A DNA stretch of 46,963 bases from Clostridiales bacterium (GTDB lineage Bacteria; Bacillota; Clostridia; Christensenellales; Pumilibacteraceae): positions 1 to 46,963 of the forward strand of contig JAFLVI010000006.1 in the NCBI GenBank assembly GCA_022508405.1, given 5' to 3'. The translations under genes were made by a program, and so were the position numbers. The notes below the pieces were generated by a model. It was not told the origin of the DNA, ran no database searches, and saw only the letters and a list, made by a program, of their open reading frames with translations. Below, piece after piece: positions 1 to 34,006 of the stretch (the first letter of the stretch is position 1; the number at the start of each line of letters is the position of its first letter).

Positions 1-150
1 TAAGGTCTTGTGCAACGTCTGCTTGCGAACCGTGTCAGGGCTTGACCGCAGCAGCACTAAACAAGATGTGGCGTGTGCCACAAGGTAGCTTTAGCGGAGT
101 CAACCGGCGGAAAAACGCTTCGGTGCGTATTATCAAAGACGGTGCGCAGT
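1..150 (+). ncRNA. ffs: Signal recognition particle RNA (4.5S/scRNA), 5' end possibly outside window
   Basis: Contains GCGAACCGTGTCAGG...GCAGCAGCACTAA core typical of Firmicutes SRP RNA; flanking helices CTTGTG/CACAAG, ACGTC/GGCGT and CTTG/CAAG pair across the apical domain. Exact ends uncertain. Confidence 0.85.
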
Positions 151-15605: not shown

Positions 15606-18600
15606 TCAAACTAATCCCAAATGCTTTCTGTTAAAATCTTTTATCGAATGTAAACTATCATCAAATTTCACATCATAATCCTGAAATTCAGTCAACCCAC
15701 AAGACGTAATCCATAAATGATGTAATTGTATTTTATTTGATGTCAATTCTTCGATTCTCTCTGGATAATACTGGTTAATAATGTTGAACATGATTATATT
15801 GAAATCCTCATTAACCCCATAGAAATCATGAGGGTCTCCATTATTAAGTCTTTTTACCACTTGTAATAAAATATGTAAATAAGTTTCAACACTTATATAA
15901 TCATAAAAGTTATCCAACAACAAATCCAAACCGCTACCATGCAAGCCATATCGGTTAGCAACTATTACATATGGTACGATAACGTTTTGCACAAATTTTT
16001 CCTTATCTACATCATTTAATATCTCCCCAACTTTTATTAGAAAGCAGTATGTAGAAGAATAATCCTGTTTCGTATATGTATCCAATAATTCAATAGCTTG
16101 AACCGAAAGTCCTTGTTTACGCACAGTATCCATAATTGCAAGTTCTGCGCTCTCTTGTGCTTTATTTATTGCACTAGAATATACAGGCACGTCTTGTTTA
16201 ACTTCGTCACGAGGGTATTTTTTTAGTAACTCATCTCTAATCTTTGCATCACTGAATTTTGTAGCTATTTTGTGATTCGAATCGGCTAAAAAACCCAATT
16301 GATTTGTTCCGCGCTTTTTCTTACTTTCTATATTTTCATTTATCCAGGCATTTAAAAGCCTTTGTATTTCGGTTAATTCTTCATCACTATAGTTAATGTA
16401 ATTCAATGAATCAATCAATTCATTTAGTAGACATTCTCTCCAATAATGAAAATCATCCGTGGTATTATGCAACTCAAACAAAGCATCGACAAATCGCCAC
16501 CCTAATTGTAATGCTGTTCTAAATATACTACTATCTACACTATTAGCAGCACGATTATCTCCAATTTTTTCTGCCTCATCCGATATGGACAAAATACTAA
16601 TCCCATGTTTAAACTTATTTTCCGATGTTGGTAATTTGTCAAACCATTTAAAAACATCGTACAGAGAATAATCTTTATGATTTACATAGCCGATTATTTT
16701 GACTGAGTTCATTTTAGTAGTCTGTTCCGCATAAGCCACAAGACCACATTGCTTCAATTCATCTATTATGGCGTTGCAAACATAACTAGCATTTGAATAG
16801 TCATCATTCCATACACTTCCTTTCTTTCCTATCCAATAATCAGCAATTACCTTTATAGACTCAATTTCTTCTGCTATTCTAAAAAGCTGCAAATAATTGC
16901 TGTTAAATTTTGCCGGTAAAGAATCAAGCCCAATATATATAGGCAAAATGCGAGAGCAAAACTCTTTAAGTTTGGACCTATCCCAATTGTCACTATAAGT
17001 CGAAACCACAATCTTCTCTAAAAAATCAATAGTATCACGAGAATTTATATCAGACACTGAGCCCATTCCGTGTTTATTAGCAAAATAAGTCATTTCATAT
17101 ACATATTCCACTAAATCTTCCGATATCTCATCATCATAAAAAACTCTAAATATTTTATTTGCTATCTCTACGAGCCTTTTCGCCGGAAAATAACCTCTGT
17201 CTCCTTGCTTAATATAATTATCACTTAAGAGTTCATCATATAATTTCGATAATTCTTCTTTATTAGAATCACTTACTTTATTGTATATGCAAAAAAGTAA
17301 TTTAACAAAATAGCCAATTCTTTGCGAATCAAATTGAAAAACATCTTTAGCCATTATTTCCTGCTTTCTTTCGTATATGACATTAATTAAATCGTCATCT
17401 TGAAGCCCATTAAAAATTAGAGCGCAGCAAATATCAATCAATGAAAACAACGATACACCTGTATTTCGAAAACAATTACTAAGCCTAATTAGAACATTTT
17501 GTTTTACTTGCGTTACAATGTTATGAATATAATCATACAAGTCTCGTTTATAGTAATGCTGAAATGTCAATGTCGTCTCGATATCATCTTCACAAACATA
17601 CTGCTTTGATGCCTCAAGCCACCCAGAAATAAAGTCAGCATAGCCATGCGTTTCCTCCCACTCATCATCAAATCTGCAATTCTGTCTATAAACTCTACAA
17701 ATGTAACCTATTTTTCGAATCGTTTCTTCCGCTGTAGAATTTTTCATTACATTCACAAACTGAGAATCGGATAATCCACCTAAATATTCATTATATACTT
17801 TTTGCCCTCTCTCATATTCACCTCGTACTATCAAAACGTATATATCTCGTGCTATTATTTCAAAATCCTTCTTGTAATCCAACATATACTTTTCTGCAGA
17901 AAATAATTCATCATCATTGTTTACAAAACGCTCATTAGTCAATTCATTATATTCCAGGCAATTTACATATTGAAATAATGTATTAAATGCTAAATTTAAC
18001 TTAATCATGCAATCAATGGATTTTGAACTATAGGCCGCTTCAAAAAGCATCGCAAACTGTTCTACAAGCTTCATCACAGGTACATTGAATAATGTGGATT
18101 TCATAATATAATCGGATGTATATAAATCAATGCTTTTGTCATTACAACACTCAAACAACGCATCAAATAAGTAATTATACCTTAATCCACACAAATCATC
18201 ATACGTATTTATAATATTCTCAAATCTTTGTACAATATTAGCACAGTTTCTATTTTGGCTACACCTATCCTTAAAGTATAATCTGACATCATTGTGAAAT
18301 GCATAAAAACCATTTACGTCCTCTTGCAATAACGGATACAAACGACACAAACAATCACCGACTGTCACCTCATCTTCTTCGCAAAGCTTCGCAACATCTC
18401 TCAATTTTATTTTTTGCGTGACAAATGCAAATATTGCCACTACTTTATTTAGTAATGAGCTTGACTGCAACGAATTAAATATCCATTCATAATACTTACT
18501 GATTTCACAATTTAATTTTCTCTTAATTAGTTCATCGACTAATTCTTCATATTGATAATGTTCAGCCTTGAGCTCCTCAATTGCAAAGAGAACATTAAGG

Positions 18601-20054
18601 GCATTATTTCCTACTACACGCAATATTTTATCCGCCAAAGATTCTAAGTTCGCCCCATCTACAATGATTTTTTTATCTTTAAGTAAAATTAAAACATCAT
18701 CGTAAGTCAAACTAGGCAAATCAATAATATCGACATTACCCTGCTCGTTTATTAACCAATATGGATATTTATCATTGGGCTGTCCAATTAAAACAAATTT
18801 TATGTCCCCAACAATTTCATCCGCCGCCGGCATTTGGGACAAAAATATCTCACTTGCCGCCATTCGAGAACGTGCCGCATGGTCTATTCCATCAATAAAC
18901 ACATAACAAGTTCGCCCCAACTTTTTGGCATATATATTCAAATATTTAAGCACTGTGTTCCTTATCTCACTTAAGCTCAAATCACCATAAGCCAAGGGGA
19001 ACTTAACTTCACACAACAATCCACGTTCTTCGAACTTTACTTTTAACTGTTCCAAAAGACATTGCCATAGATAGTGTCCAGAGTAATATCCTGCATCATC
19101 ACTAAAAAACATATTACCTTTACGAGCAGGAAGATATGTATAAAAATTGAAATCTATAATAGAATTCGGCGTTTGTGATAAATATGTTACAAAATTTGTT
19201 TTTCCTGACCCCGGCAAACCTCTGAGAAAAATAATTTTCTTCTTGGATTTTTTTATATCTTCTACAAACGTCTCTTTAAAATGTTCGCGTGATGGAAATA
19301 TAGGTTTTTCAACATATAAAGTATCAAATCGAGGGACATCAATTTGCTTTGAACAAATTGCTCTATATACATCCTCCCGGCATATCTCACTTTTTTCTCG
19401 CAAAGATGTCGCCCAAATTCTTAATTTTGAATAAAGTTTATCTGCAACTGCAGAAATTTTAGCATCATCACTTGTCCCCAATATGGTAGCTATAAGAGAC
19501 CGAAACTCTTTCTCGACCGCAACTCTATCTCCAAATTCTGTGAATCCCAGCAACTTAATAAAATCATATATTTCATCACCCAAAAAAGATAAAGTGCTTT
19601 TAAGTCGCTCAATCACTTTATTGGCTTCGGGTGAATCAGAAACATAGTTGCTATCATTTTGCCATCGCGGTAGTTCTATCTCAACAAAATTTTTGAATGA
19701 ACAACAGCCATCAACTTGATTTTGGCCAAAATGTTTATTGGTGATAATATTTATACACTTAATATTGGCATTTGTTTTAGTATCTTGCCAATCTTTCGCC
19801 CACTTGGCCAACATCGAAGTTTCACCCGATAATAGCGTGGAAAAGGTAAAATTATTATCGACATCCGTATGCTTAACCTGATAATTAAGCGTACTACCGT
19901 CAATATAATTTACAACCACATCATCAATAGAAGTAAACCGTGAATCTTGAATAACAACGCTACGAATATCATTGTTATACAACATTTCTAGGCACTTTAA
20001 TAATCCTATTTCCCACTCATACCAATATGGTGTTCCAATGCCTGCACTACACAT
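15606..20054 (-). CDS. Large STAND-like P-loop NTPase with N-terminal PD-(D/E)xK/Cap4-like nuclease domain (Avs-like antiviral candidate)
   Basis: N-terminal GTPYWYEWEIGLL...IDDVVVNYIDGSTLNYQVKHTD nuclease-like motif; Walker A FLRGLPGSGKTNF; Walker B CYVFIDGIDHAARS; long helical C-terminus. Start at internal ATG 20054 (SD GGAG, overlaps upstream stop) preferred over 20075. Confidence 0.7.
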   Translation of the reverse strand: MCSAGIGTPYWYEWEIGLLKCLEMLYNNDIRSVVIQDSRFTSIDDVVVNYIDGSTLNYQVKHTDVDNNFTFSTLLSGETSMLAKWAKDWQDTKTNANIKCINIITNKHFGQNQVDGCCSFKNFVEIELPRWQNDSNYVSDSPEANKVIERLKSTLSFLGDEIYDFIKLLGFTEFGDRVAVEKEFRSLIATILGTSDDAKISAVADKLYSKLRIWATSLREKSEICREDVYRAICSKQIDVPRFDTLYVEKPIFPSREHFKETFVEDIKKSKKKIIFLRGLPGSGKTNFVTYLSQTPNSIIDFNFYTYLPARKGNMFFSDDAGYYSGHYLWQCLLEQLKVKFEERGLLCEVKFPLAYGDLSLSEIRNTVLKYLNIYAKKLGRTCYVFIDGIDHAARSRMAASEIFLSQMPAADEIVGDIKFVLIGQPNDKYPYWLINEQGNVDIIDLPSLTYDDVLILLKDKKIIVDGANLESLADKILRVVGNNALNVLFAIEELKAEHYQYEELVDELIKRKLNCEISKYYEWIFNSLQSSSLLNKVVAIFAFVTQKIKLRDVAKLCEEDEVTVGDCLCRLYPLLQEDVNGFYAFHNDVRLYFKDRCSQNRNCANIVQRFENIINTYDDLCGLRYNYLFDALFECCNDKSIDLYTSDYIMKSTLFNVPVMKLVEQFAMLFEAAYSSKSIDCMIKLNLAFNTLFQYVNCLEYNELTNERFVNNDDELFSAEKYMLDYKKDFEIIARDIYVLIVRGEYERGQKVYNEYLGGLSDSQFVNVMKNSTAEETIRKIGYICRVYRQNCRFDDEWEETHGYADFISGWLEASKQYVCEDDIETTLTFQHYYKRDLYDYIHNIVTQVKQNVLIRLSNCFRNTGVSLFSLIDICCALIFNGLQDDDLINVIYERKQEIMAKDVFQFDSQRIGYFVKLLFCIYNKVSDSNKEELSKLYDELLSDNYIKQGDRGYFPAKRLVEIANKIFRVFYDDEISEDLVEYVYEMTYFANKHGMGSVSDINSRDTIDFLEKIVVSTYSDNWDRSKLKEFCSRILPIYIGLDSLPAKFNSNYLQLFRIAEEIESIKVIADYWIGKKGSVWNDDYSNASYVCNAIIDELKQCGLVAYAEQTTKMNSVKIIGYVNHKDYSLYDVFKWFDKLPTSENKFKHGISILSISDEAEKIGDNRAANSVDSSIFRTALQLGWRFVDALFELHNTTDDFHYWRECLLNELIDSLNYINYSDEELTEIQRLLNAWINENIESKKKRGTNQLGFLADSNHKIATKFSDAKIRDELLKKYPRDEVKQDVPVYSSAINKAQESAELAIMDTVRKQGLSVQAIELLDTYTKQDYSSTYCFLIKVGEILNDVDKEKFVQNVIVPYVIVANRYGLHGSGLDLLLDNFYDYISVETYLHILLQVVKRLNNGDPHDFYGVNEDFNIIMFNIINQYYPERIEELTSNKIQLHHLWITSCGLTEFQDYDVKFDDSLHSIKDFNRKHLGLV

Positions 20055-20724
20055 AATCTTTCTCCAATTGCGCAATACAAAGATGACATATTTGAAAAAA
20101 GACTTTCTCTATTTCAAATTTCGTCATATTTATGTGATAGCCGTTTATAAGGCTATCAATTAGATATTTGAAATTATCAGAATAATCCTCTTCATAAATA
20201 TCTAAACCATATACTTCATGCGCCTTACCTGTAAACTCACATAATTCACCAAAATTAGCAGGCTCAATAAGATGACAATTATACTTTAACATTTTACCGA
20301 GAATTTTAGCTCTTTCCAAACAATCGCTACTTAATTTTATCAGTGGGCCATTCTCAGTAAAACAATCTCTTTTCATCTTAAATTGCCAATCAATAAAAAA
20401 AGGAGTAAATAAAAATGACGGACGAGTATTAATCACATATTGAGCCAATCCATGCTTTAATGCATCTGGGAATCTATTATAAGTACCTTCATAAACGGCT
20501 ATCGTTTCTTTCTGCACATCAATCGGATATAGAATTCGGGCATTCTTATCAATCAGCGCATAACCGCATATTAGAAAATACCGTTTCAACAACTGTAAGC
20601 TTTTTATGCTCAAATAAACTATCCCGATTTTTGTATCATCGTTATAATTCGTTTTATCTAAAACTCGAAATCCTCCCAGTCCCAAGTCATACACCATATG
20701 CGCTACATTTGTCACAAAACACAC
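20047..20724 (-). CDS. Hypothetical protein coupled to STAND NTPase gene
   Basis: Stop codon overlaps start of the STAND gene (ATGTGTAG); starts directly after rloB-like stop; true start may be GTG at 20715. Confidence 0.7.
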   Translation of the reverse strand: MCFVTNVAHMVYDLGLGGFRVLDKTNYNDDTKIGIVYLSIKSLQLLKRYFLICGYALIDKNARILYPIDVQKETIAVYEGTYNRFPDALKHGLAQYVINTRPSFLFTPFFIDWQFKMKRDCFTENGPLIKLSSDCLERAKILGKMLKYNCHLIEPANFGELCEFTGKAHEVYGLDIYEEDYSDNFKYLIDSLINGYHINMTKFEIEKVFFQICHLCIAQLEKDYV

Positions 20725-20726
20725 CC

Positions 20727-21350
20727 CTATTTTGTAAGTTTCAAAGCTTCTATCAGCTTATAAACCGTAGTACACGAATTCCAATCCCAAATCGGCGGTC
20801 GAGAGTTTTCGCCGCATTGTTCGATATGCTCTCTCATTCTTGTTTGAAAAACCACTTTTGCATTAGTTACGGCTATTTCATAATTCGGAATAAAATATTT
20901 CTCCAAAACATCCACATCTGACTTATCATAATTTAGACCCGGTTTTTGTTCGGACAAATATTTGTCCAATATTCGCTTATGTCCGTCCGTATCCAAGTGT
21001 TGGTCACATTTTTGAAAATGGTCAATAAGCCACACCTCAAATGCAAGATTCGAAAATGCGTATTTTACTCCATTACTCTCCGCAAGCTTTATTGCCTGCA
21101 CAAGCCTTCCGTCTTTATGACTGTTATCCACATCAAATACAACCCACGCCTGATTAGATTCAGGAACCAATCGACTGGCATACTCAACTAACCCATACGG
21201 GTCGCTATTTGCGAATTCCACCTTTACATTATAAATGCTTTTCTTCGATTTTATTAATGAAAAGTAATTATACTCAGTTCTTTTCCCATTTGTAATTATG
21301 TAAAACTTATCTCGCTCTTCTTGTCTTTTGATTTTCGCTCGTCTTGCCAT
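20727..21350 (-). CDS. RloB-like protein (AbiL-type abortive infection partner)
   Basis: RAKIKRQEERDKFYIITNGKRTEYNYFSLI...VVFDVDNSHKDGRL...SNLAFEVWLIDHF; likely ATG at 21350 with SD GAGGTG. Confidence 0.82.
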   Translation of the reverse strand: MARRAKIKRQEERDKFYIITNGKRTEYNYFSLIKSKKSIYNVKVEFANSDPYGLVEYASRLVPESNQAWVVFDVDNSHKDGRLVQAIKLAESNGVKYAFSNLAFEVWLIDHFQKCDQHLDTDGHKRILDKYLSEQKPGLNYDKSDVDVLEKYFIPNYEIAVTNAKVVFQTRMREHIEQCGENSRPPIWDWNSCTTVYKLIEALKLTK

Positions 21351-21358
21351 ATTACACC

Positions 21359-22654
21359 TCAATCGTCTCTCATATCGGGCAATCCGGCATAGAACCCAGC
21401 TAAATATTTTTTGCTGAACAAATCGTTTTTGCGTACATTGTTAAAATCGGATAAAGAGACAAGACGACTTTCTCCAAACTCGTCCTTGCTTGTAAAATAT
21501 ATCTGGTCTCTACGTAAATCCTCATCCATAAGCATGACATTATGAGCCGTGCAAATGAGCTGCGCATTCTTGGGATTTTTGTCTATGGAGTTGAATAAGC
21601 GCAACAAATAATCGGCAACCAAGAAATGCAGTTTTGCATCTATTTCATCAATTAGGATTACCCTACCTTGGTCTAATGCAGCCAAAACCCATCCAAGATA
21701 GCACAGCAATCTTTCCGTACCTTCAGAGTTGAAACCTGCATTTTTATACAACAAAACATCTATACTACCCTTAACTTTACCTTTACGGTCATATACATCA
21801 AAAAAAGTTTCCAAATCGAGATTATATAAATTCTTTTCTTCTTGTTTGAGCTGCCCCATCCCTACAGGATTGATTTGCATTTGAGCATTTATGCGCAACA
21901 TATCGTTAAAGTCCGTCATGTTAGCAATTTTATCTTTCTTTACTCTTATATTTCTAATTCCGATATCTGCCAACTTTAATATCTTAAGCGCTTGGTCACG
22001 ATATTTTCCGTTTTCCAAAGTATATATATCTAGAATATTGGCATCATTTTCAAACACAATATAGAGATTAGAAAACCACGTCATAACATCCATCATATAA
22101 GAATTGATATCTAATTGGAAGTTATTGCTGACAGCCAAAAACAAAGTTTGGGGGGAAATGTTAATAAGTTTGGAAGCTTGTTTGGGCAATCCGGAAATCT
22201 CCAAAATATTATCTACACGTTTGAAAACAGGAGTCAATCGCTCCTTACGTCTATCCAACCATTCTGACTTTACAACACCATTCAACAAAGAAAAGCCATA
22301 TCTATAATAAGATTCGTTTTGAATAATCTCTACTTCATAGATGCTTTCTTCCTCACGCGCATAATCATAGAACGCATAAAACTCATTATGCGCTACTATT
22401 GGGAATTGCGATGCAGACAAAAGCAATACGTTTTTCATGTACGCTAAAGCCTTAAGGACATTAGTTTTCCCCGAAGCATTCCCACCGAAAATTACGGCAG
22501 ACTTCAAAAGCTCGTTATTACTACCCTTCAAAAGATTATCATCGACCGAAAAAGTATTGATTTCACGGTGTTCGTTATCTCTCACGGCTTCCATGCTTAA
22601 TTCGGTTTCTTCGTAAAAAGACCTACAATTTTTAAATCTGAAATTGACTAACAT
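21359..22654 (-). CDS. RloA-like AAA-family ATPase (AbiL-type)
   Basis: LVNFRFKNCRSFYEETELSM, GGNASGKTNVLKAL Walker A, VILIDEIDAKLHFLVADYLLRLF Walker B. Confidence 0.87.
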   Translation of the reverse strand: MLVNFRFKNCRSFYEETELSMEAVRDNEHREINTFSVDDNLLKGSNNELLKSAVIFGGNASGKTNVLKALAYMKNVLLLSASQFPIVAHNEFYAFYDYAREEESIYEVEIIQNESYYRYGFSLLNGVVKSEWLDRRKERLTPVFKRVDNILEISGLPKQASKLINISPQTLFLAVSNNFQLDINSYMMDVMTWFSNLYIVFENDANILDIYTLENGKYRDQALKILKLADIGIRNIRVKKDKIANMTDFNDMLRINAQMQINPVGMGQLKQEEKNLYNLDLETFFDVYDRKGKVKGSIDVLLYKNAGFNSEGTERLLCYLGWVLAALDQGRVILIDEIDAKLHFLVADYLLRLFNSIDKNPKNAQLICTAHNVMLMDEDLRRDQIYFTSKDEFGESRLVSLSDFNNVRKNDLFSKKYLAGFYAGLPDMRDD

Positions 22655-25109: not shown

Positions 25110-25565
25110 TTACACCGATGTCTTTGAGATAAGCCTGTCGTACAAGTTCATACTCATTACAACCGCCCTCGCCTCGCCTTGCGCAGTCAAAATAATCGGC
25201 GTGCCATCTGTGAGTTGACCGAGTGCTTTGCCATCTATCGGCACAACACGAAACAACCCGGTATATTTCTTTAATAGCATAGAGTTCTTAGGACGGCGGA
25301 GTTCTCGCAACACAAGAGAGTGAATATTATGTACTTTCTGCGTGGTGTAACTCATTCGCTTTGCAATATCACTTTCCGATAAGTGTTCTCTATACAAAGC
25401 ATAGAATACAGAGCGAGCATCATCGGTTAATAAACAAACTATTCTATCGATAGTGCCATTTAACTCTGCCTCATCGAAGTAGCATGTTGTCTCCTCTGTC
25501 TTGTCACCGAACACCGCCATGAGAACATTGGCAGGATAAGTCTTGTTGTCCATAAGTTTTTTCAT
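25110..25565 (-). CDS. HTH regulator: sigma-70 region-4-like domain plus Phd/YefM-like C-terminal segment
   Basis: LTDDARSVFYALYREHLSESDIAKRMSYTTQKVHNIHSLVLRELRR HTH; IILTAQGEARAVVMSMNLYDRLI. Confidence 0.5.
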   Translation of the reverse strand: MKKLMDNKTYPANVLMAVFGDKTEETTCYFDEAELNGTIDRIVCLLTDDARSVFYALYREHLSESDIAKRMSYTTQKVHNIHSLVLRELRRPKNSMLLKKYTGLFRVVPIDGKALGQLTDGTPIILTAQGEARAVVMSMNLYDRLISKTSV

Positions 25566-26212: not shown

Positions 26213-26827
26213 TCACTCTCTTGCCCATCTGCGTGCTCTGCCCCTTGCCATGAAAGTAGGTTTTGTAAAAGTTTCCTCAAACATGACTTGATTTTTAACG
26301 GGGGTAACGGCATAACCAAACTCTTGCAAATTTATACGAAACTTAAGACCATACTTTGAGAAAAAAACTTGCGCTTCCGTTTCATCTGTAACTGTTCTTG
26401 TAATTTCTATTAGCCTATATGACTTGCACCCATTTGTAGTTTTATAGTAAGCAATCGTACTTGGTTCAATATTCGGGTCAATAGATACTCTGCCAAAGAA
26501 ATAACTCTCTTGACCAAAACAACGAGCAACACATTCTGCATCTTGCTGTGTAAGATTAAAAGTTATGTAGGTTAAATTGTGGTCAATATATTTACCTTTA
26601 ATCTTAACATAGTCAAAGCCACCATAACCAAGTGCTTTATTCCCATCTCTTTTAATGGCATCAGCCTTTGAGAGTTTTGTCTGCTCATCTTCGGGAAACA
26701 TGCCTATGGGATTGTCAGCCGATATGATGGCAAAAGTTCTGATTCTGCCAGTATTGTCGCCAAACAACACTCTCTTTACCCTTCGGTAGCGATTGCCATT
26801 CTCGTTTGATATTCTTTTTATTCTCAT
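26213..26827 (-). CDS. Hypothetical protein (DUF3293-like pattern), unknown operon gene 5
   Basis: FAIISADNP...LGYGGFDYVKIKGKY...CFGQESYFFG; abuts upstream gene. Confidence 0.6.
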   Translation of the reverse strand: MRIKRISNENGNRYRRVKRVLFGDNTGRIRTFAIISADNPIGMFPEDEQTKLSKADAIKRDGNKALGYGGFDYVKIKGKYIDHNLTYITFNLTQQDAECVARCFGQESYFFGRVSIDPNIEPSTIAYYKTTNGCKSYRLIEITRTVTDETEAQVFFSKYGLKFRINLQEFGYAVTPVKNQVMFEETFTKPTFMARGRARRWARE

Positions 26828-27280
26828 TTATTTACCACTTTTATAGCCATCATCTAAATAACAAAGATAATGTGCACTGTTATCTTCAATGACCGAAACC
26901 TTTTTAATTCCGTTATGAGTTGTAAGATTAAATTCACTCTTAATGAAGTAAATTACCTCAGCATAGTTTATATTGCCGTTTAGGAATATTCTTGCAACAC
27001 CGTTCTTTATTTCTACTCGACCACGAGGAAAGTAGTTATACGGCTTGTTGTGAGTTAAAAAAGACGATAACTTATTCCAAGTAGCTTGGTGGTTGTATGT
27101 ATCACCGCTTTTAGCAATACCTAGCGAACTATCTATACTTGAACTACTGCCATCCGTTGAGCAAAGAATCTTGAAACAGTAATTCTTATTCTGTTCTATG
27201 TTGTCGGTATCTACAATCCAAAAGATGCCCTTATATAGTGCTATATCGTCTGTTGTTATATCGTTGTCTTTATTTGTCAT
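26828..27280 (-). CDS. Hypothetical protein, unknown operon gene 4
   Basis: 150 aa; PYNYFPRGRVEIKNGVARIFLNGNINYAEVI; 4-nt overlap with upstream gene. Confidence 0.6.
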   Translation of the reverse strand: MTNKDNDITTDDIALYKGIFWIVDTDNIEQNKNYCFKILCSTDGSSSSIDSSLGIAKSGDTYNHQATWNKLSSFLTHNKPYNYFPRGRVEIKNGVARIFLNGNINYAEVIYFIKSEFNLTTHNGIKKVSVIEDNSAHYLCYLDDGYKSGK

Positions 27281-27915
27281 AGTAACACTCTGTCTTTCAA
27301 TACATTATTCTCGTAGACTTGTTCAAGACGGTAACTTGTCTGAAAGTACGATGGTCTTGGGCGTTCCACTTCGCTAATCTCTTTAAGCGTGATGGGGATA
27401 GGCTTTCTATTATTAAATACTTCTGTTGCGGTCTTCATATTAAGAGGCGTATCACCGCTAAGATTGAATGTTCTAATGACATCCATAACTCTATGCTTAC
27501 TGCCACGGCTGCAATCTGTATAGACAGTAGAAACAATCTCTCGGCAACCGTTCATGTCCTTCACAATGATTGACTTTTGATTGTACTTTGTGCCCAACAC
27601 CATCGCATCGCCATAAAAAATTCCATATATAATCAGAGCCTCTTCGTCGTATGGGGTGCCGTTTGTATCAATCCAACGAGAAATCAAATGTGAATAACCC
27701 AGCTTATATTGCTTGCTCACCTCGTTCTTTATGGATTGTAAAACCGACTTACCTTCTTTCGCCAGTACTACAACATCCCCATTCCAATTTGAAACATTAA
27801 AAAAAATGATAGCGCATTTTTCTTCATAACCTGTAAGATAACGATACAGTTTTTCAGTACCGCCGCCATTCAAATCCTTCAATCGTAAAACTTTATCTAT
27901 CATAAAACTCATCAA
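27277..27915 (-). CDS. Hypothetical protein, unknown operon gene 3
   Basis: 212 aa; 4-nt overlaps on both sides. Confidence 0.6.
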   Translation of the reverse strand: MMSFMIDKVLRLKDLNGGGTEKLYRYLTGYEEKCAIIFFNVSNWNGDVVVLAKEGKSVLQSIKNEVSKQYKLGYSHLISRWIDTNGTPYDEEALIIYGIFYGDAMVLGTKYNQKSIIVKDMNGCREIVSTVYTDCSRGSKHRVMDVIRTFNLSGDTPLNMKTATEVFNNRKPIPITLKEISEVERPRPSYFQTSYRLEQVYENNVLKDRVLL

Positions 27916-28652
27916 CCACCTTTCTTGTTGATTTCGTCAAGAGCATCTTGGATTGAATAATTAGGGCCCCACATTGTAACCGGCAAATACGGATTCAACC
28001 CGAACAGCGACTTTATGCGTGCGTCCCTACAATACTCACCCATAACGGTACCCTCTGCGGTGGCACGACAACTTCTTTGCAGTTCGCCTAGTGTTAAGGT
28101 TTTTTCTTCACACCCATTCTCACTGCATCGATATTTACTCAACATCATAGTGCTGTAATCGTTTAATGCGCCCTCTACCGAATCTGTGGTGCATGTTGCA
28201 GTTTGGATATAATTTATATCATTCATATCCTCGGTTGCCCAATACGATATTTTAAGTCTGCCGTCGATATATCTTCCGATGCAAATATCCCTCTGTTTAT
28301 ATAGCTCGCTCAGTTTTAGTAACGCTTTCAAAAACCTTTCCCATTTATAACAGTTATTCCACACGAGGCAGACTTCATTTATGCCGTCGCACCAACCACC
28401 CGAAATACTTTGATAGTCAAAGCCAATGCTTTGGATATTCTCTACAAAGCGTTCTCTATTCCGCTCGTTATACAGTCGGTATGCTTTTTCGTTAAACTTG
28501 CCATCCGAATAAAAAAGAGATTTGTCCGCACAAACGCTTATCGTGGCGAAGATAACCATTTCCTTCCTTGACCTTATACATCTTTCCTGCAACTCTTTAT
28601 CGCTGATGCGTATAAAGTCAAAGTTGCATTTTTGTAACTCGTCAAAAGTCAT
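27912..28652 (-). CDS. Hypothetical protein, unknown operon gene 2
   Basis: 246 aa; overlaps downstream gene by 4 nt. Confidence 0.6.
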   Translation of the reverse strand: MTFDELQKCNFDFIRISDKELQERCIRSRKEMVIFATISVCADKSLFYSDGKFNEKAYRLYNERNRERFVENIQSIGFDYQSISGGWCDGINEVCLVWNNCYKWERFLKALLKLSELYKQRDICIGRYIDGRLKISYWATEDMNDINYIQTATCTTDSVEGALNDYSTMMLSKYRCSENGCEEKTLTLGELQRSCRATAEGTVMGEYCRDARIKSLFGLNPYLPVTMWGPNYSIQDALDEINKKGG

Positions 28653-28683
28653 AATTCACCTCTCGAATAATCTTATCAAGCAG

Positions 28684-29733
28684 TCACTTTCGGCTTTTGT
28701 TTCTTGCGGCTTCAAAGTATGTAAATAACTGCTGTTGCAGTCCCGGCGTAATCCAAACCGTGTGCGCCTTATAGTTAGCTATGATATTTATAGTGTCGCC
28801 GAATTTCCAAATTGCAAAGACACTTTTGCCGTCTATCTTACCGTCTACTTCAATCGATTCTATATGTCGCGAATATCTTTTATACCGAAAACTTAACGCT
28901 ATTACTTCAAAGTCCTCACAACCGAAAAGCGTTTTTTCTTGAACAAACCGACCCTTGCCGTCCGTATCGTTAAGGAATATCACTTCCTCTTTTTTAGCGC
29001 AGTCGCACTGGTATTTTATCTCGCACACAAGATACTTGTCGGCAGATTGCAACAAAGGAAAGCTACCGTCTTCAACGCTTTGTTTAATCTTGTCGCTTAT
29101 ACCGAAGGACTGCTTCTTGTTCATCTCAAAAAAATCAAAATCACTCAAAAAGTTTCTAATCTCGCAAACTTTTTGTAGGATTTCGCCGTCTTTATAACAG
29201 GATATAAACTGATAGCGATAATCGGACAGTCTGCGATAGTACAGCTTGTTATCGTCAAAATCGACACACTCGAAGCCGTCCAGTGCCTTTGCTTTTTCGT
29301 ATTCATTCAAGAATGTGCGGAACATAATATTCAAACGCTTAATCTGCTCGGGCGACGGAGCAAAATGCTTGCCACCGCACACTATTCGCCCACCCGACAA
29401 ATAGTAGTCCTTGTAATTTGCCGTATAGATTCTGTTATCGCCTGCTATGCCCTTGAACACAACCTGATTCTTCCCTTGCGGAAGCTGTAACACATGCGGA
29501 CGCATCCTAATTTGGCGCTGGGCATCGAGCCAATCGCGCACTTCCGACAAAATGAGAACACCGTGCACTTCTGACCAATCATAGAGCCAGGACAACGGAA
29601 TGGAGTTAAGCTCGTGCTGTGTCAATGCTCTAATGTCATCAACGGACACTTCGGCAATCTCTTTAAAGTAGTTGCCGTCCACCATGCAACGCTCGTAGCC
29701 GAATCTCTTGTACGGGATTTTTTTGCTTCTCAT
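28684..29733 (-). CDS. Hypothetical protein, unknown operon gene 1 (first gene after riboswitch)
   Basis: 349-aa ORF, SD GAGAGGTG upstream, no recognised domain. Confidence 0.6.
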   Translation of the reverse strand: MRSKKIPYKRFGYERCMVDGNYFKEIAEVSVDDIRALTQHELNSIPLSWLYDWSEVHGVLILSEVRDWLDAQRQIRMRPHVLQLPQGKNQVVFKGIAGDNRIYTANYKDYYLSGGRIVCGGKHFAPSPEQIKRLNIMFRTFLNEYEKAKALDGFECVDFDDNKLYYRRLSDYRYQFISCYKDGEILQKVCEIRNFLSDFDFFEMNKKQSFGISDKIKQSVEDGSFPLLQSADKYLVCEIKYQCDCAKKEEVIFLNDTDGKGRFVQEKTLFGCEDFEVIALSFRYKRYSRHIESIEVDGKIDGKSVFAIWKFGDTINIIANYKAHTVWITPGLQQQLFTYFEAARNKSRK

Positions 29734-29765
29734 AATTCACCTCTCAAAAATTTTTTCATAAAAAT

Positions 29766-29790
29766 AGAACCCATCGCAACGATGAGTTCT
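29766..29790 (-). terminator. Riboswitch expression-platform terminator
   Basis: AGAACTCATCG-TTG-CGATGGGTTCT 11-bp stem followed by ATTTTTAT. Confidence 0.8.
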
Positions 29791-29805
29791 TATCCCGAAA
29801 AATAT

Positions 29806-29893
29806 AAACCCATCGTTCAGCCATTGGCACCTTGCCTTAAAAGGTAGGTTGTCGTTCGGTCATCGGGGCTGTCCCTCGCGAACTCTCTATGGT
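29806..29893 (-). promoter_or_regulatory. SAM-I-clan-like riboswitch aptamer (variant, P4 not apparent)
   Basis: Minus strand CATAGAGAGTTCGCGAGGGACAGCCCCGATGACCGAACGACAACCTACCTTTTAAGGCAAGGTGCCAATGGCTGAACGATGGG: P2 GTTCG/CGAAC, k-turn-like GAGGGA..CCCGATGA, P3 ACCTxCCTT/AAGGxxAGGT, GGTGCCAA, loop pseudoknot CAGCC/GGCTG. Confidence 0.65.
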
Positions 29894-29899
29894 GATTGT

Positions 29900-29930
29900 A
29901 TTATAGCACAGTATGTGCCGACCAAGTCAA
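29900..29930 (-). promoter_or_regulatory. Promoter of riboswitch-led operon
   Basis: TTGACT (29925-29930), N19, extended -10 TGCTATAAT (29900-29905). Confidence 0.65.
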
Positions 29931-30087: not shown

Positions 30088-31521
30088 TTATCTTATAGCT
30101 CTCCCGATATATTCATCAATCTTTCTATGTATCTCAGAAATTCTTAAATTAATTTCCGCCTGCAAATTCACCTTTTCTTCAATCTGTTTAACAATTGCAA
30201 GTTGTTCTTCTAATGGTATTCGAGGGATATCAAAATCTTCCACACTAGCAGGGTCTATATGTATTTGGTTTGTAGCGCCTGTATATGCATATTCAAATTG
30301 AAATACGCCCAACATGCTATTTAAGAAATATGCCAAAAATTTGCCACTGTATTTTTCTTCGTCTACACGAATAATCATTACTTCCGATGTTGCAAAAGCT
30401 TTGATATCTGTTGAATTGTATGTCGCCTTCCCTAATGAGCCCTTCCCGATATTGCAAACAAGAACATCACCACATTTTATATGCGCTTCCTCTTGATTTT
30501 CATATTGTTCCTCTCCAACAAATTCCGTGAACTCTAATTGTAACCCATCTACTGAAAGATGGGCGGTTTTTATGGCTGGAATAAACCCTTCTTTTGTATA
30601 ACAAGGAGCTTCTCCGTTATGGACTTTGTTCTTAATAATTTCCCGTAACTTTAATGTACCCAAACTAGACAAAATGCTATCTGATTTTCTTATAATAGGA
30701 TTACTACTCCTCACCGACAATCGTAGCAAATCAGATTTAGAATCGGCAAGCTTATTGTAAAATGTCAACATGGCTTTTGCCTCTAATTTTTGCGTTCCAT
30801 ACGACATTCCTTTTCCTAATTGATTTATTTCAGATATATCGTAATTAAAAGCTCTTGCAAATACATCATCAATAATCTGAACCGTGTCTACTTGTTTATC
30901 TTTAAGATGGCGCATTTCATATACGGCTGGTTTTATTCCATCCAATAATTCGAATTGCACTTCTCTAGGTATCTTAGGAATATATAAAGATTTCAGATGT
31001 TCTGAATTCAATCCAGGTTGCCCCTTTTTTCTATAAGCTAAATCAATTACCTGGTTCTGAAAAAACTTCTCTCTCATTAAGAAAAATAAAATACTCTGTT
31101 CAATTACACCGTTTGCTCTTAAGACATATACATGTTCATTAACCATTACTTTATCGTGTGGCAATATGCTCAAATCCACCATGCACACTTTTCCGGTCAT
31201 TGACCCATCTTTGCATAAAAGAATATCTCCATCTCTAACCTTCCCTTCTTTTTGTCCATCAAAAAAATCGAAAGGAATGTACGGTAGTTTTTTGATATCT
31301 AAATCCCCATCGGATCCAATTTGTTCGCCACCTAAACTAATTGCTTGTCCACAATATTCTGCCCTTATACCGCCGACAGGACGCCCACCTGATTCGCAAG
31401 AATCGATAACCTCCGATAAAGGGATATATGAATATTTCAATATAGGAAGACTATAATAGTCACCAAGGCGTAGGTTATGATATTTTGCAAATTCCCAGAA
31501 ATTGGTATTATGTATCTTCAT
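30088..31521 (-). CDS. hsdS: Type I-style restriction specificity (S) subunit
   Basis: Two TRD-like halves: VRDGDILLCKDGSMTGK...GLNSEHLKSLYIPKIPREVQFELLDGIKP and IKCGDVLVCNIGKGSLGKA...VEDFDIPRIPLEEQLAIVKQIEEKV. Confidence 0.93.
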   Translation of the reverse strand: MKIHNTNFWEFAKYHNLRLGDYYSLPILKYSYIPLSEVIDSCESGGRPVGGIRAEYCGQAISLGGEQIGSDGDLDIKKLPYIPFDFFDGQKEGKVRDGDILLCKDGSMTGKVCMVDLSILPHDKVMVNEHVYVLRANGVIEQSILFFLMREKFFQNQVIDLAYRKKGQPGLNSEHLKSLYIPKIPREVQFELLDGIKPAVYEMRHLKDKQVDTVQIIDDVFARAFNYDISEINQLGKGMSYGTQKLEAKAMLTFYNKLADSKSDLLRLSVRSSNPIIRKSDSILSSLGTLKLREIIKNKVHNGEAPCYTKEGFIPAIKTAHLSVDGLQLEFTEFVGEEQYENQEEAHIKCGDVLVCNIGKGSLGKATYNSTDIKAFATSEVMIIRVDEEKYSGKFLAYFLNSMLGVFQFEYAYTGATNQIHIDPASVEDFDIPRIPLEEQLAIVKQIEEKVNLQAEINLRISEIHRKIDEYIGRAIR

Positions 31522-31532
31522 AATCTATATCC

Positions 31533-33950
31533 TTAATTCCAATTTATTTCACGCATATAATCCAATATTGTGGTTTTAACCCCATCATCAACATCAATAA
31601 CTTCGTTACCATTTGCGTCAATATGAGAACGATACAATTCGTTTGGCATCGCTTTTTCTAAAACAACTTTATTCTTTGTATACCGCTTGTAGCCAATATT
31701 TTCTGTTTCAGCCATAAAAACATCATAGTTAAGCTCTCGCGACACTTTTTCGAATACCCACCAAACGTTCACATACCCGAATGCTTTCTTCTCGGCACAA
31801 AGTTTTAACAGATTCTCTAATACATTTTGATACTTATCGATTAACTGCTCCGCCGACAGCGCATCGTCAGACTTGTCGTAGTTGTTTGATAAAAATAACC
31901 TAATGACTTGTACTTTATCTAACTCTGTCATATCTTTTATTGAAGAAAGCTTAGATTTTTCTGCTTTACCCTCTTTTACGGCAATCAAATTATTAACTCT
32001 GGTTCTTAGCTTACTATATTCGTTTGAATGGTTTGTCCACAGCTCGTTCCATTTTTCAACTTCTGTCGCAGTTTTCTTTTGGAGAAAAACAATGCTGGTT
32101 TTTGTTGGAGTATAAGGTTCAAATGTCAACTGAGGTAAAGAAACAACCGCCTTTACTTTAAAATACTTATAAATAAAGAGCCTAATATATCTATTGCTTG
32201 TGGTATCAAAAACACTTTCAGGCAGAATAGCCGCACAACGTCCATTTTCTCTTAAAAGCTGATACCATCGTTCCACGAAAAGGTTTTCTGAGTTTGTTTT
32301 CTCCCCGAATAAGAATTCTTTCTTAATCGTCTTTTTAGTGTCGGTATCTAACTCAACACTAAAAGGAGGATTGGTAAGAATCAAATCAAACTGTTCATTA
32401 ACCTGCATATCACCATAAACAGCGGAACTGATATGTTGATTCATCGCATTAGTACCAACTTCTTTGTGATAGCTTTCAAACGGTGCAAGACCGTCCTTTA
32501 CAAAGATATTTGTAGAACCGTCTCCATGCAATATCATATTTACTTTTGTTGCTGTACCGAGATTGAAGTTTATCTCTGAACCATAAATGTATGTCTGAGC
32601 CCATTTGTTTTCGCGATGGTCTGGGTAAAACCAATCAGATTCTATTTTATCTCTAACAGCTGTTGATGTTCCTAATTCTTTATTGTATCCGTTATTACCA
32701 CGATTATGATATTTCATCATGTATGTGATGAATTTCATATATTCAATTAGGAATGTTCCACTGCCTGCCGAAGGGTCTATCATATAAGGAATTTCCCTAT
32801 CTTCTTTTACCCTTCTAATTGCTAATCTGTCTGCCTGAATAGCCCAAAGCATAAAGCGAACAACATTAGGATGCGTAAAGAACTGACCCTTGCTTTGCTT
32901 AAATCCATTTCGTATAATACCTTCAAAAAAGGTTCCTAAAATGTCTTTACCATTTAAACTGTTTTTCCCTTCTACAAATGATAAGTTTTCTAACTTCTGC
33001 ACAGTATATTTTAACTTTGAATAAGAGAATTTTTTGGAATCTATAACATTTGATTTTTCCAACTCCGCGCTATCTGTTATATTTAATTTGTTCCGCAATG
33101 CTCGTCGATATAGAGCATTAATGCGCTCAAATAAAGTTTCATTGCTTTCAAATTCTTCATCGCCATCTTTTTCAAATGTCAAAGATTGGAAATCATAAGT
33201 TTCCCCATCTTCTTTTTCATCCTCATCTTGAATTTTTGTTAAAATCAAATTTGTTAAAGATGAAAAAATTTCGTTATCATCTGTTCCACCGCCACCCCAC
33301 AAGACATTATGTAAATCTTTTTGAAGTTGCGAAAGCATTTCATTACTGAAACTACTTTCTAAATCTTTATCAGAACCTTTAATATATGGCTTTTTCTGCG
33401 CCCTGCCATAATGAGCAGGTAAAGTATTTGTACTATTTCTTGTCGGTTCCCAGTCTGAGTATGTATTATATTTTTTGTTATCAATGATGATACAATTATC
33501 TGTGAGTACATCTGTCTCATCATTGATAGTATAAAGTATAAGATATTTTACATCGTGATTTTCTGCACGTTCTTGTGCCGCAACTTTAAATAACTGCTCC
33601 TCGATAGTTTTATCCTTATCAATTACCGCATATTCATCTGGATTTTTAACTTCTATAAAAAGGAAGGCATCGCCTTTACCATCTCGAACAATAACATCAA
33701 TTCGACTGGTATTCGTATGCGGTCTTCCTGCAGTATAGGTGTGCTCTATTTCAATTGCTTCTGGTTTATATCCAAGCTCATTTACCAGCTTAGTAATCAG
33801 ATAAGCTCGAACCAACTCTTCTGGTTTTGCTTCTGTCCGTTTTTGACATTGCTTAATTCCAAAATATGCAAGAGAGCCTTTCTCCCAATTCACAGTAACC
33901 GCCTTGATTGGCTGAGCATCTAAATAGTGCTTGATTAAATCTTTATTCAT
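31533..33950 (-). CDS. Fused restriction-modification protein: N-terminal HsdR_N-type PD-(D/E)xK nuclease plus N6-adenine methylase
   Basis: SRIDVIVRDGKGDAFLFIEVKNP nuclease-like motif; MTase motif I DPSAGSGTFLIEYM and motif IV NPPF; start chosen at ATG 33950 with SD GAGGTG (ORF track start 33983). Confidence 0.85.
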   Translation of the reverse strand: MNKDLIKHYLDAQPIKAVTVNWEKGSLAYFGIKQCQKRTEAKPEELVRAYLITKLVNELGYKPEAIEIEHTYTAGRPHTNTSRIDVIVRDGKGDAFLFIEVKNPDEYAVIDKDKTIEEQLFKVAAQERAENHDVKYLILYTINDETDVLTDNCIIIDNKKYNTYSDWEPTRNSTNTLPAHYGRAQKKPYIKGSDKDLESSFSNEMLSQLQKDLHNVLWGGGGTDDNEIFSSLTNLILTKIQDEDEKEDGETYDFQSLTFEKDGDEEFESNETLFERINALYRRALRNKLNITDSAELEKSNVIDSKKFSYSKLKYTVQKLENLSFVEGKNSLNGKDILGTFFEGIIRNGFKQSKGQFFTHPNVVRFMLWAIQADRLAIRRVKEDREIPYMIDPSAGSGTFLIEYMKFITYMMKYHNRGNNGYNKELGTSTAVRDKIESDWFYPDHRENKWAQTYIYGSEINFNLGTATKVNMILHGDGSTNIFVKDGLAPFESYHKEVGTNAMNQHISSAVYGDMQVNEQFDLILTNPPFSVELDTDTKKTIKKEFLFGEKTNSENLFVERWYQLLRENGRCAAILPESVFDTTSNRYIRLFIYKYFKVKAVVSLPQLTFEPYTPTKTSIVFLQKKTATEVEKWNELWTNHSNEYSKLRTRVNNLIAVKEGKAEKSKLSSIKDMTELDKVQVIRLFLSNNYDKSDDALSAEQLIDKYQNVLENLLKLCAEKKAFGYVNVWWVFEKVSRELNYDVFMAETENIGYKRYTKNKVVLEKAMPNELYRSHIDANGNEVIDVDDGVKTTILDYMREINWN

Positions 33951-34006
33951 TGTGAGCACCTCGTATCGTTTTTCAGTGTCCATTTATGCCAGTAGAAATA
34001 GCATAA

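Follow-up and report, generated by a model that had tools for sequence, protein, structure and literature searches.

Control by S-adenosylmethionine (SAM) riboswitches of the SAM-I type (Rfam family RF00162) is a textbook feature of methionine and SAM genes. Among the related classes, SAM-IV lacks helix P4 (PMC6890682) and has PK-2/P5 in its place, and SAM-I/IV has P4 (PMC6890682) and no P2 internal loop (PMC2864571). Barrick and Breaker (2007) described dual expression platforms, in which one aptamer governs both termination and ribosome access (PMC2258182). Here, we analyzed a stretch of 46,963 nucleotides (nt) from the gut-type Clostridia genome of Clostridiales bacterium (GenBank assembly GCA_022508405.1, contig JAFLVI010000006.1, positions 1 to 46,963; the window), in which a SAM-I-like leader precedes five genes, here called genes P1 to P5. 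We consider it highly probable that this leader is a P4-less SAM-I OFF switch and that the genes form an accessory, horizontally mobile operon expressed under SAM or methionine shortage. An original prediction, made from the letters alone, had proposed such a sensor and had read the operon as a candidate defense or restriction-modification (R-M) backup module.

A P4-less variant of the SAM-I aptamer

The leader matches RF00162 over its full length (model positions 1 to 108; 43.6 bits, E = 9e-9). This is the sole RF00162 match in the whole 1.5-Mb assembly (82% complete), and RF00162 is the best match for the RNA within its clan. Because the Rfam gathering score is 44.4 bits, cmscan of the window at the curated cut-off reported no SAM riboswitch. 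The model positions of helix P4 are deleted in the match, and the helix is also absent from the aligned relatives; on this point the predicted SAM-I-like leader needs correction, and in its other features it was borne out.

The assumed structure was evaluated in an alignment of 36 P4-less sequences (the window plus relatives), with 500 shuffles and slid structures as controls. It pairs 96.3% of cells, versus at most 38% for the slid controls. Thirteen of the 26 aptamer pairs have changed on both sides, the covariation score was reached by 0/500 shuffles, and all five helices covary, including the P2-loop pseudoknot (CAGC/GCTG) that had been proposed from the letters. Covariation of the aptamer is far beyond chance. 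We take C44, A45, U57, G58, and G11 (Thermoanaerobacter numbering; T. tengcongensis structure) to be SAM contacts of SAM-I, and the columns equated with such contacts are invariant or nearly so across the 36 rows. The published contact residues are 6-8, 11-12, 44-47, 57-59, and 87 (PMC6890682). The ligand is very likely SAM. It could be argued that the RNA senses something else, as P4 is missing, the G43-C59-type pair varies among relatives (A-C, C-G, or G-C), and many targets are not SAM genes; against this stand the near invariance of the remaining contact positions and the 11 P4-less copies that precede metK, and we regard a changed ligand as very improbable.

With SAM-I, the window RNA shares the core sequence, helices P1 to P3, a kink-turn-type P2 loop, the pseudoknot, nearly all SAM-contact positions, and a terminator-based OFF platform, but it lacks P4, has a short helix P1, and belongs to a group whose targets are mostly unknown genes; most relatives differ further in a second, Shine-Dalgarno lock worked by the aptamer 5' strand. 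With SAM-IV, it shares the SAM core and the absence of P4 (PMC6890682); no PK-2/P5-like element was seen by eye in the window RNA, for which no separate RF00634 search was made. The SAM-I/IV model (RF01725), from the same clan, matched weakly at 34.2 bits (E 6e-4), under its 41.1-bit cut-off, and the architecture is the opposite one (a P2 internal loop and no P4 in the window RNA). Compared in this way, the leader is a genuine P4-less variant of SAM-I and not a canonical member.

Expression platform and proposed switching

The sigma-70-type promoter named in the original prediction reads as described, and transcription is predicted to begin near the 5' strand of helix P1. In a homologous locus of genome G301, TTGACT-N17-TATAAT stands directly upstream of the aptamer. 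Behind the window aptamer, an antiterminator is present in the minimum-energy state of ~120 to 160 nt transcripts, and the stretch containing the terminator (29806-29755), taken alone, folds at -14.8 kcal/mol. The gap between riboswitch and gene P1 is 73 nt.

With ample SAM, the aptamer would keep the 3' strand of helix P1 (CGAUGGG), the terminator at 29789-29758 would form, and transcription would stop before gene P1. When SAM drops, the CGAUGGG strand would pair with 29788-29778 in the antiterminator, and polymerase would continue into gene P1 and, via overlapping or abutting junctions, read through into P2 to P5. We infer this SAM-dependent exchange of terminator and antiterminator from the sequence of the window leader. 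Given such an OFF switch, the operon is most likely an accessory mobile module expressed when SAM or methionine is short.

Most relatives also carry, behind the terminator, CUCUUUAUAGG-like segments complementary both to the aptamer 5' strand and to their own Shine-Dalgarno region. At low SAM, the 5' strand CCUAUAAAGAG would pair with CUCUUUAUAGG, and otherwise the CUCUUUAUAGG segment would pair with the Shine-Dalgarno instead. Across 103 leaders, duplex energy was -11.4 kcal/mol with a leader's own partner versus -9.4 kcal/mol with swapped partners (standard deviation [SD] 0.17), and in a nonredundant subset of 45 dissimilar leaders it was -10.6 versus -8.5 (SD 0.25); the pairing was placed by best match, and the identical choice was applied to the swapped partners. 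A first ungapped pairing test had given a small excess only, whereas duplex energies for the segment behind the terminator showed a clear difference. The sequence surrounding the start has a folding energy of -11.8 in these 103 leaders versus -5.7 after shuffling, and 85 of them have a paired Shine-Dalgarno. This pairing, which covaries, suggests a two-stage lock in the relatives, with the full platform in the G301 leader. A strong second lock is not present in the window (where it is weak or missing), in genome G001, or in several metK leaders. As in the dual platforms of Barrick and Breaker, a single aptamer would serve termination and ribosome access (PMC2258182), but in these relatives a separate hairpin stands behind the terminator and would be opened by the aptamer 5' strand.

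Gene P1, its homologs, and the operon

The full-length P1 family has three members in the samples searched, and a riboswitch lies upstream of all three. Besides that of the window, one member (38% identity) is in G301, which belongs to a different family within the order, and the aptamer directly upstream of it scores 51.9 bits with RF00162; the other is in G001, of the same genus (24% and 22% identity in two alignments). Sequence and comparison together establish the aptamer core, the pseudoknot, the terminator and antiterminator, and the linkage to gene P1. As these features are read, the riboswitch controls gene P1 and probably the run P1 to P5.

Several points weigh against this interpretation. 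The RF00162 score falls 0.8 bits under the Rfam cut-off (44.4 bits), the short helix P1 of the window has 4 Watson-Crick pairs, and 8 of the 36 sequences, the window included, show an A-C mismatch at a pair of P3 that adjoins the SAM site. No relatives of P2 to P5 turned up next to the P1 homologs in G301 and G001; control of all five genes is therefore argued from spacing. No RF00162 match lies near the G295 gene in which a P1-like and a P3-like part are fused, beside a P5 homolog, or near a P1-like fragment in G095. The leader conservation that the original prediction asked about thus extends to both other full-length P1 homologs and not to the P3 and P5 homologs of G295.

One could also suppose that the switch is vestigial, carried along with the island and controlling nothing relevant today. 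The sub-threshold score and the weak second lock in the window would agree with this, but promoter, aptamer, antiterminator, and terminator are all intact, and the same linkage to P1 recurs in two other genomes; we think decay of this kind highly unlikely for what we read as a working OFF switch.

The original prediction described five tightly coupled open reading frames (ORFs) between 27.9 and 26.2 kb. The five ORFs are coupled as described (P1 and P2 lie 31 bp apart, P2/P3 and P3/P4 overlap, and P4/P5 abut), but the span given omits P1 and most of P2, the two genes next to the switch. The start regions of genes P1 and P2 have the same 16 nt, GAGAGGTGAATTATGA (29730-29745 and 28649-28664). 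P1, P3, P4, and P5 are real genes, since homologs exist elsewhere, and P1, P3, and P5 probably act together, because the G295 P5 homolog adjoins the P1-P3-like fusion. The P4 homolog that lies near the FGase riboswitch locus L143 seems not to be part of the FGase operon. The proteins are uncharacterized, as had been stated: P1 had no confident Pfam, NCBIfam, PHROG, or PADLOC match, no enzyme family was matched by P1 to P5, and hhalign gave no link between P1 to P5 and the ~100-amino-acid (aa) orphan family described below. An AlphaFold prediction of P1 from two sequences was poor (predicted local distance difference test [pLDDT] 37) and was set aside. A wider class sample yielded no further full-length P1 member; pattern searches of genome contigs and IMG/VR found no P1 relatives, whereas profile searches did find some, and tblastn gave no match for P5 among phages, nor among plasmids for P1 or for a single small orphan protein. 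Coordinates are collected in Table 1.

Table 1. Features of the leader, operon, and surroundings, in window coordinates
Feature	Position	Strand	Basis or remark
Promoter, sigma-70-type, TTGACT-N19-TATAAT	29900..29930	-	Read from sequence; TTGACT 29930-29925, TATAAT 29905-29900, spacer 19 nt
Aptamer, P4-less SAM-I (helix P1, P2 with kink-turn-type loop, P3, pseudoknot)	29807..29895	-	RF00162 match and pair covariation
Pseudoknot 3' side, GCTG	29818..29821	-	Pairs with CAGC at 29871-29868; 4/4 pairs covary
Antiterminator, AACGATGGGTT (29817-29807, including helix P1 3' strand) and AACTCATCGTT (29788-29778)	29778..29817	-	Sequence and minimum-energy fold
Intrinsic terminator, GAACTCATCG-TTG-CGATGGGTTC then TATTTTTAT	29758..29789	-	Sequence; same arrangement in relatives
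Shine-Dalgarno of gene P1, GAGAGG	29740..29745	-	Sequence
Gene P1, 349 aa	28684..29733	-	Homology; riboswitch-linked homologs in G301 (L221) and G001 (L035/L118)
Gene P2, 246 aa, orphan	27912..28652	-	Two marginal matches only in 297 genomes of the order
Gene P3, 212 aa	27277..27915	-	Matches C-terminal part of P1-P3-like fusion in G295, E 2e-16
Gene P4, 150 aa	26828..27280	-	Homologs in MT838628.1 (fecal phage-labeled contig; 39% identity, E 3e-15) and L143
Gene P5, 204 aa	26213..26827	-	Homology; G295 (beside P1-P3 fusion) and G155 (near serine recombinase)
ORF whose protein combines a sigma-70 region 4-like and a Phd/YefM-like stretch	25110..25565		Both below curated cut-offs
HsdS-like gene and 816-aa N6-methylase with HSDR_N_2 domain	30088..33983		
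1,489-aa AAA protein with Cap4-nuclease-type N terminus, and AbiLi/AbiLii (RloA/RloB-like) pair	15606..22654		
Bacterial large signal recognition particle RNA	1..149		Cut off by window edge

Targets of the P4-less class and the defense context

Of 201 genomes from relatives, 69 had RF00162 matches, which divide into high scorers and a set about 84-92 nt long. The 30 best-scoring matches in the same order (>=73.7 bits) all have metK beside them, and most of the short, lower-scoring ones resemble the P4-less aptamer of the window. A DNA pattern built from the short aptamers found at least 120 stretches in GTDB genomes and 16 in IMG/VR. About 160 relatives, mainly from gut and rumen Clostridia plus phage contigs, have the P4-less form. 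On one contig (L077), the riboswitch cassette is duplicated in tandem.

We surveyed the first downstream genes of the ~160 leaders, some of which are duplicate records of one genome. The most frequent was an orphan family of ~100 aa (56 leaders), followed by FGase-like (17), metK (15, of which 4 with longer aptamers and 11 P4-less), MORN-type (8), and many small groups, some of which may be wrong, as gene starts came from a simple script. Profile comparison adds two small target groups to the orphan family. The orphan family members tried had no Pfam, NCBIfam, or PHROG match; the predicted fold is confident (pLDDT 96) and matched no solved structure at E <= 0.001, with weak matches to uncharacterized phage proteins only. 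FGase-like genes (PF05013, E 1e-46) are a recurrent target (L091, L103, L115, L131, L143, L174, and others), and it is a guess that they serve N-formylmethionine salvage. One P4-less relative (L101) precedes an amidohydrolase that by eye may be a methylthioadenosine/S-adenosylhomocysteine deaminase; P4-less RNAs before this gene and metK are as expected for SAM sensing.

Such targets lend some weight to the proposal that P1 to P5 belong to a SAM/methionine-homeostasis regulon, as an unrecognized step of methionine, SAM, or one-carbon salvage. However, P1 to P5 match no enzyme family, and the rare, patchy occurrence of the P1 family is unlike core metabolism, as is its setting in G301, where a resolvase resembling the window's own follows the P1 homolog and Tn7-like genes (by eye) lie further along. 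A salvage role is possible, though we lean against it.

The window operon sits inside an island rich in defense genes, and the R-M-type genes that had been noted beside it (HsdM/HsdS) do lie in the same island, together with the AbiL/RloAB pair and the large AAA protein. This is where the proposed defense or R-M backup role, in which the operon would come on when SAM drops (by phage depletion or methylation loss) and protect the cell or its DNA, finds its local appeal. Phage copies add to it. Six phage contigs (L193, L194, L198, L200, L204, and L205) have a C5 DNA methyltransferase next to the riboswitch-orphan cassette, and two of them, L198 and L200, also hold a metK-like gene further along. 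The named Ruminococcus phage NatCom_28274 (PV036439.1) has a riboswitch that scores 59.9 bits with RF00162 and, close by, a DNA methyltransferase gene. The cassette of phage contig L226 is also near a DNA methyltransferase. Other results speak against this role. P1 to P6 matched no PADLOC model at E <= 0.01, and no R-M genes were recognized among the ORFs read around the P1 homologs of G301 and G001 (for G001, ORF positions and the starts of a few proteins only). Among 415 neighbor genes of riboswitch-orphan loci, the C5-methyltransferase motif occurred only in phage contigs; with no enrichment of methyltransferase motifs beside the bacterial loci, such adjacency was rejected as a general feature of the class. 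Islands, moreover, gather unrelated genes. The phage copies may have a role that links SAM and DNA methylation; for the window operon, we judge a defense role unlikely. Of the original prediction, then, the sensor is confirmed and the R-M backup is not supported, as homologs give it no specific support, so that its interpretation overall is partly supported.

Our literature search, which reached few subscription journals, found no description of a P4-less orphan-gene regulon or of a two-stage platform. A bolder proposal, to which we attach little probability, is that the P4-less RNAs make up a SAM-I subclass of their own, locked in two stages (terminator and Shine-Dalgarno hairpin) with one strand of helix P1 throwing each, and that they define a low-SAM orphan regulon of gut Clostridia, their phages, and mobile islands, whose proteins, P1 to P5 included, would guard the cell or the element against effects of SAM loss such as unmethylated DNA. 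If true as drawn, the two-stage platform of the relatives would be an unusually tight natural OFF switch. Taken together, we see a trimmed, recurrent variant of a familiar riboswitch whose target genes, in host genomes and phage contigs alike, mostly lack a known role, and SAM limitation may offer a ready handle for learning what these orphan proteins do.

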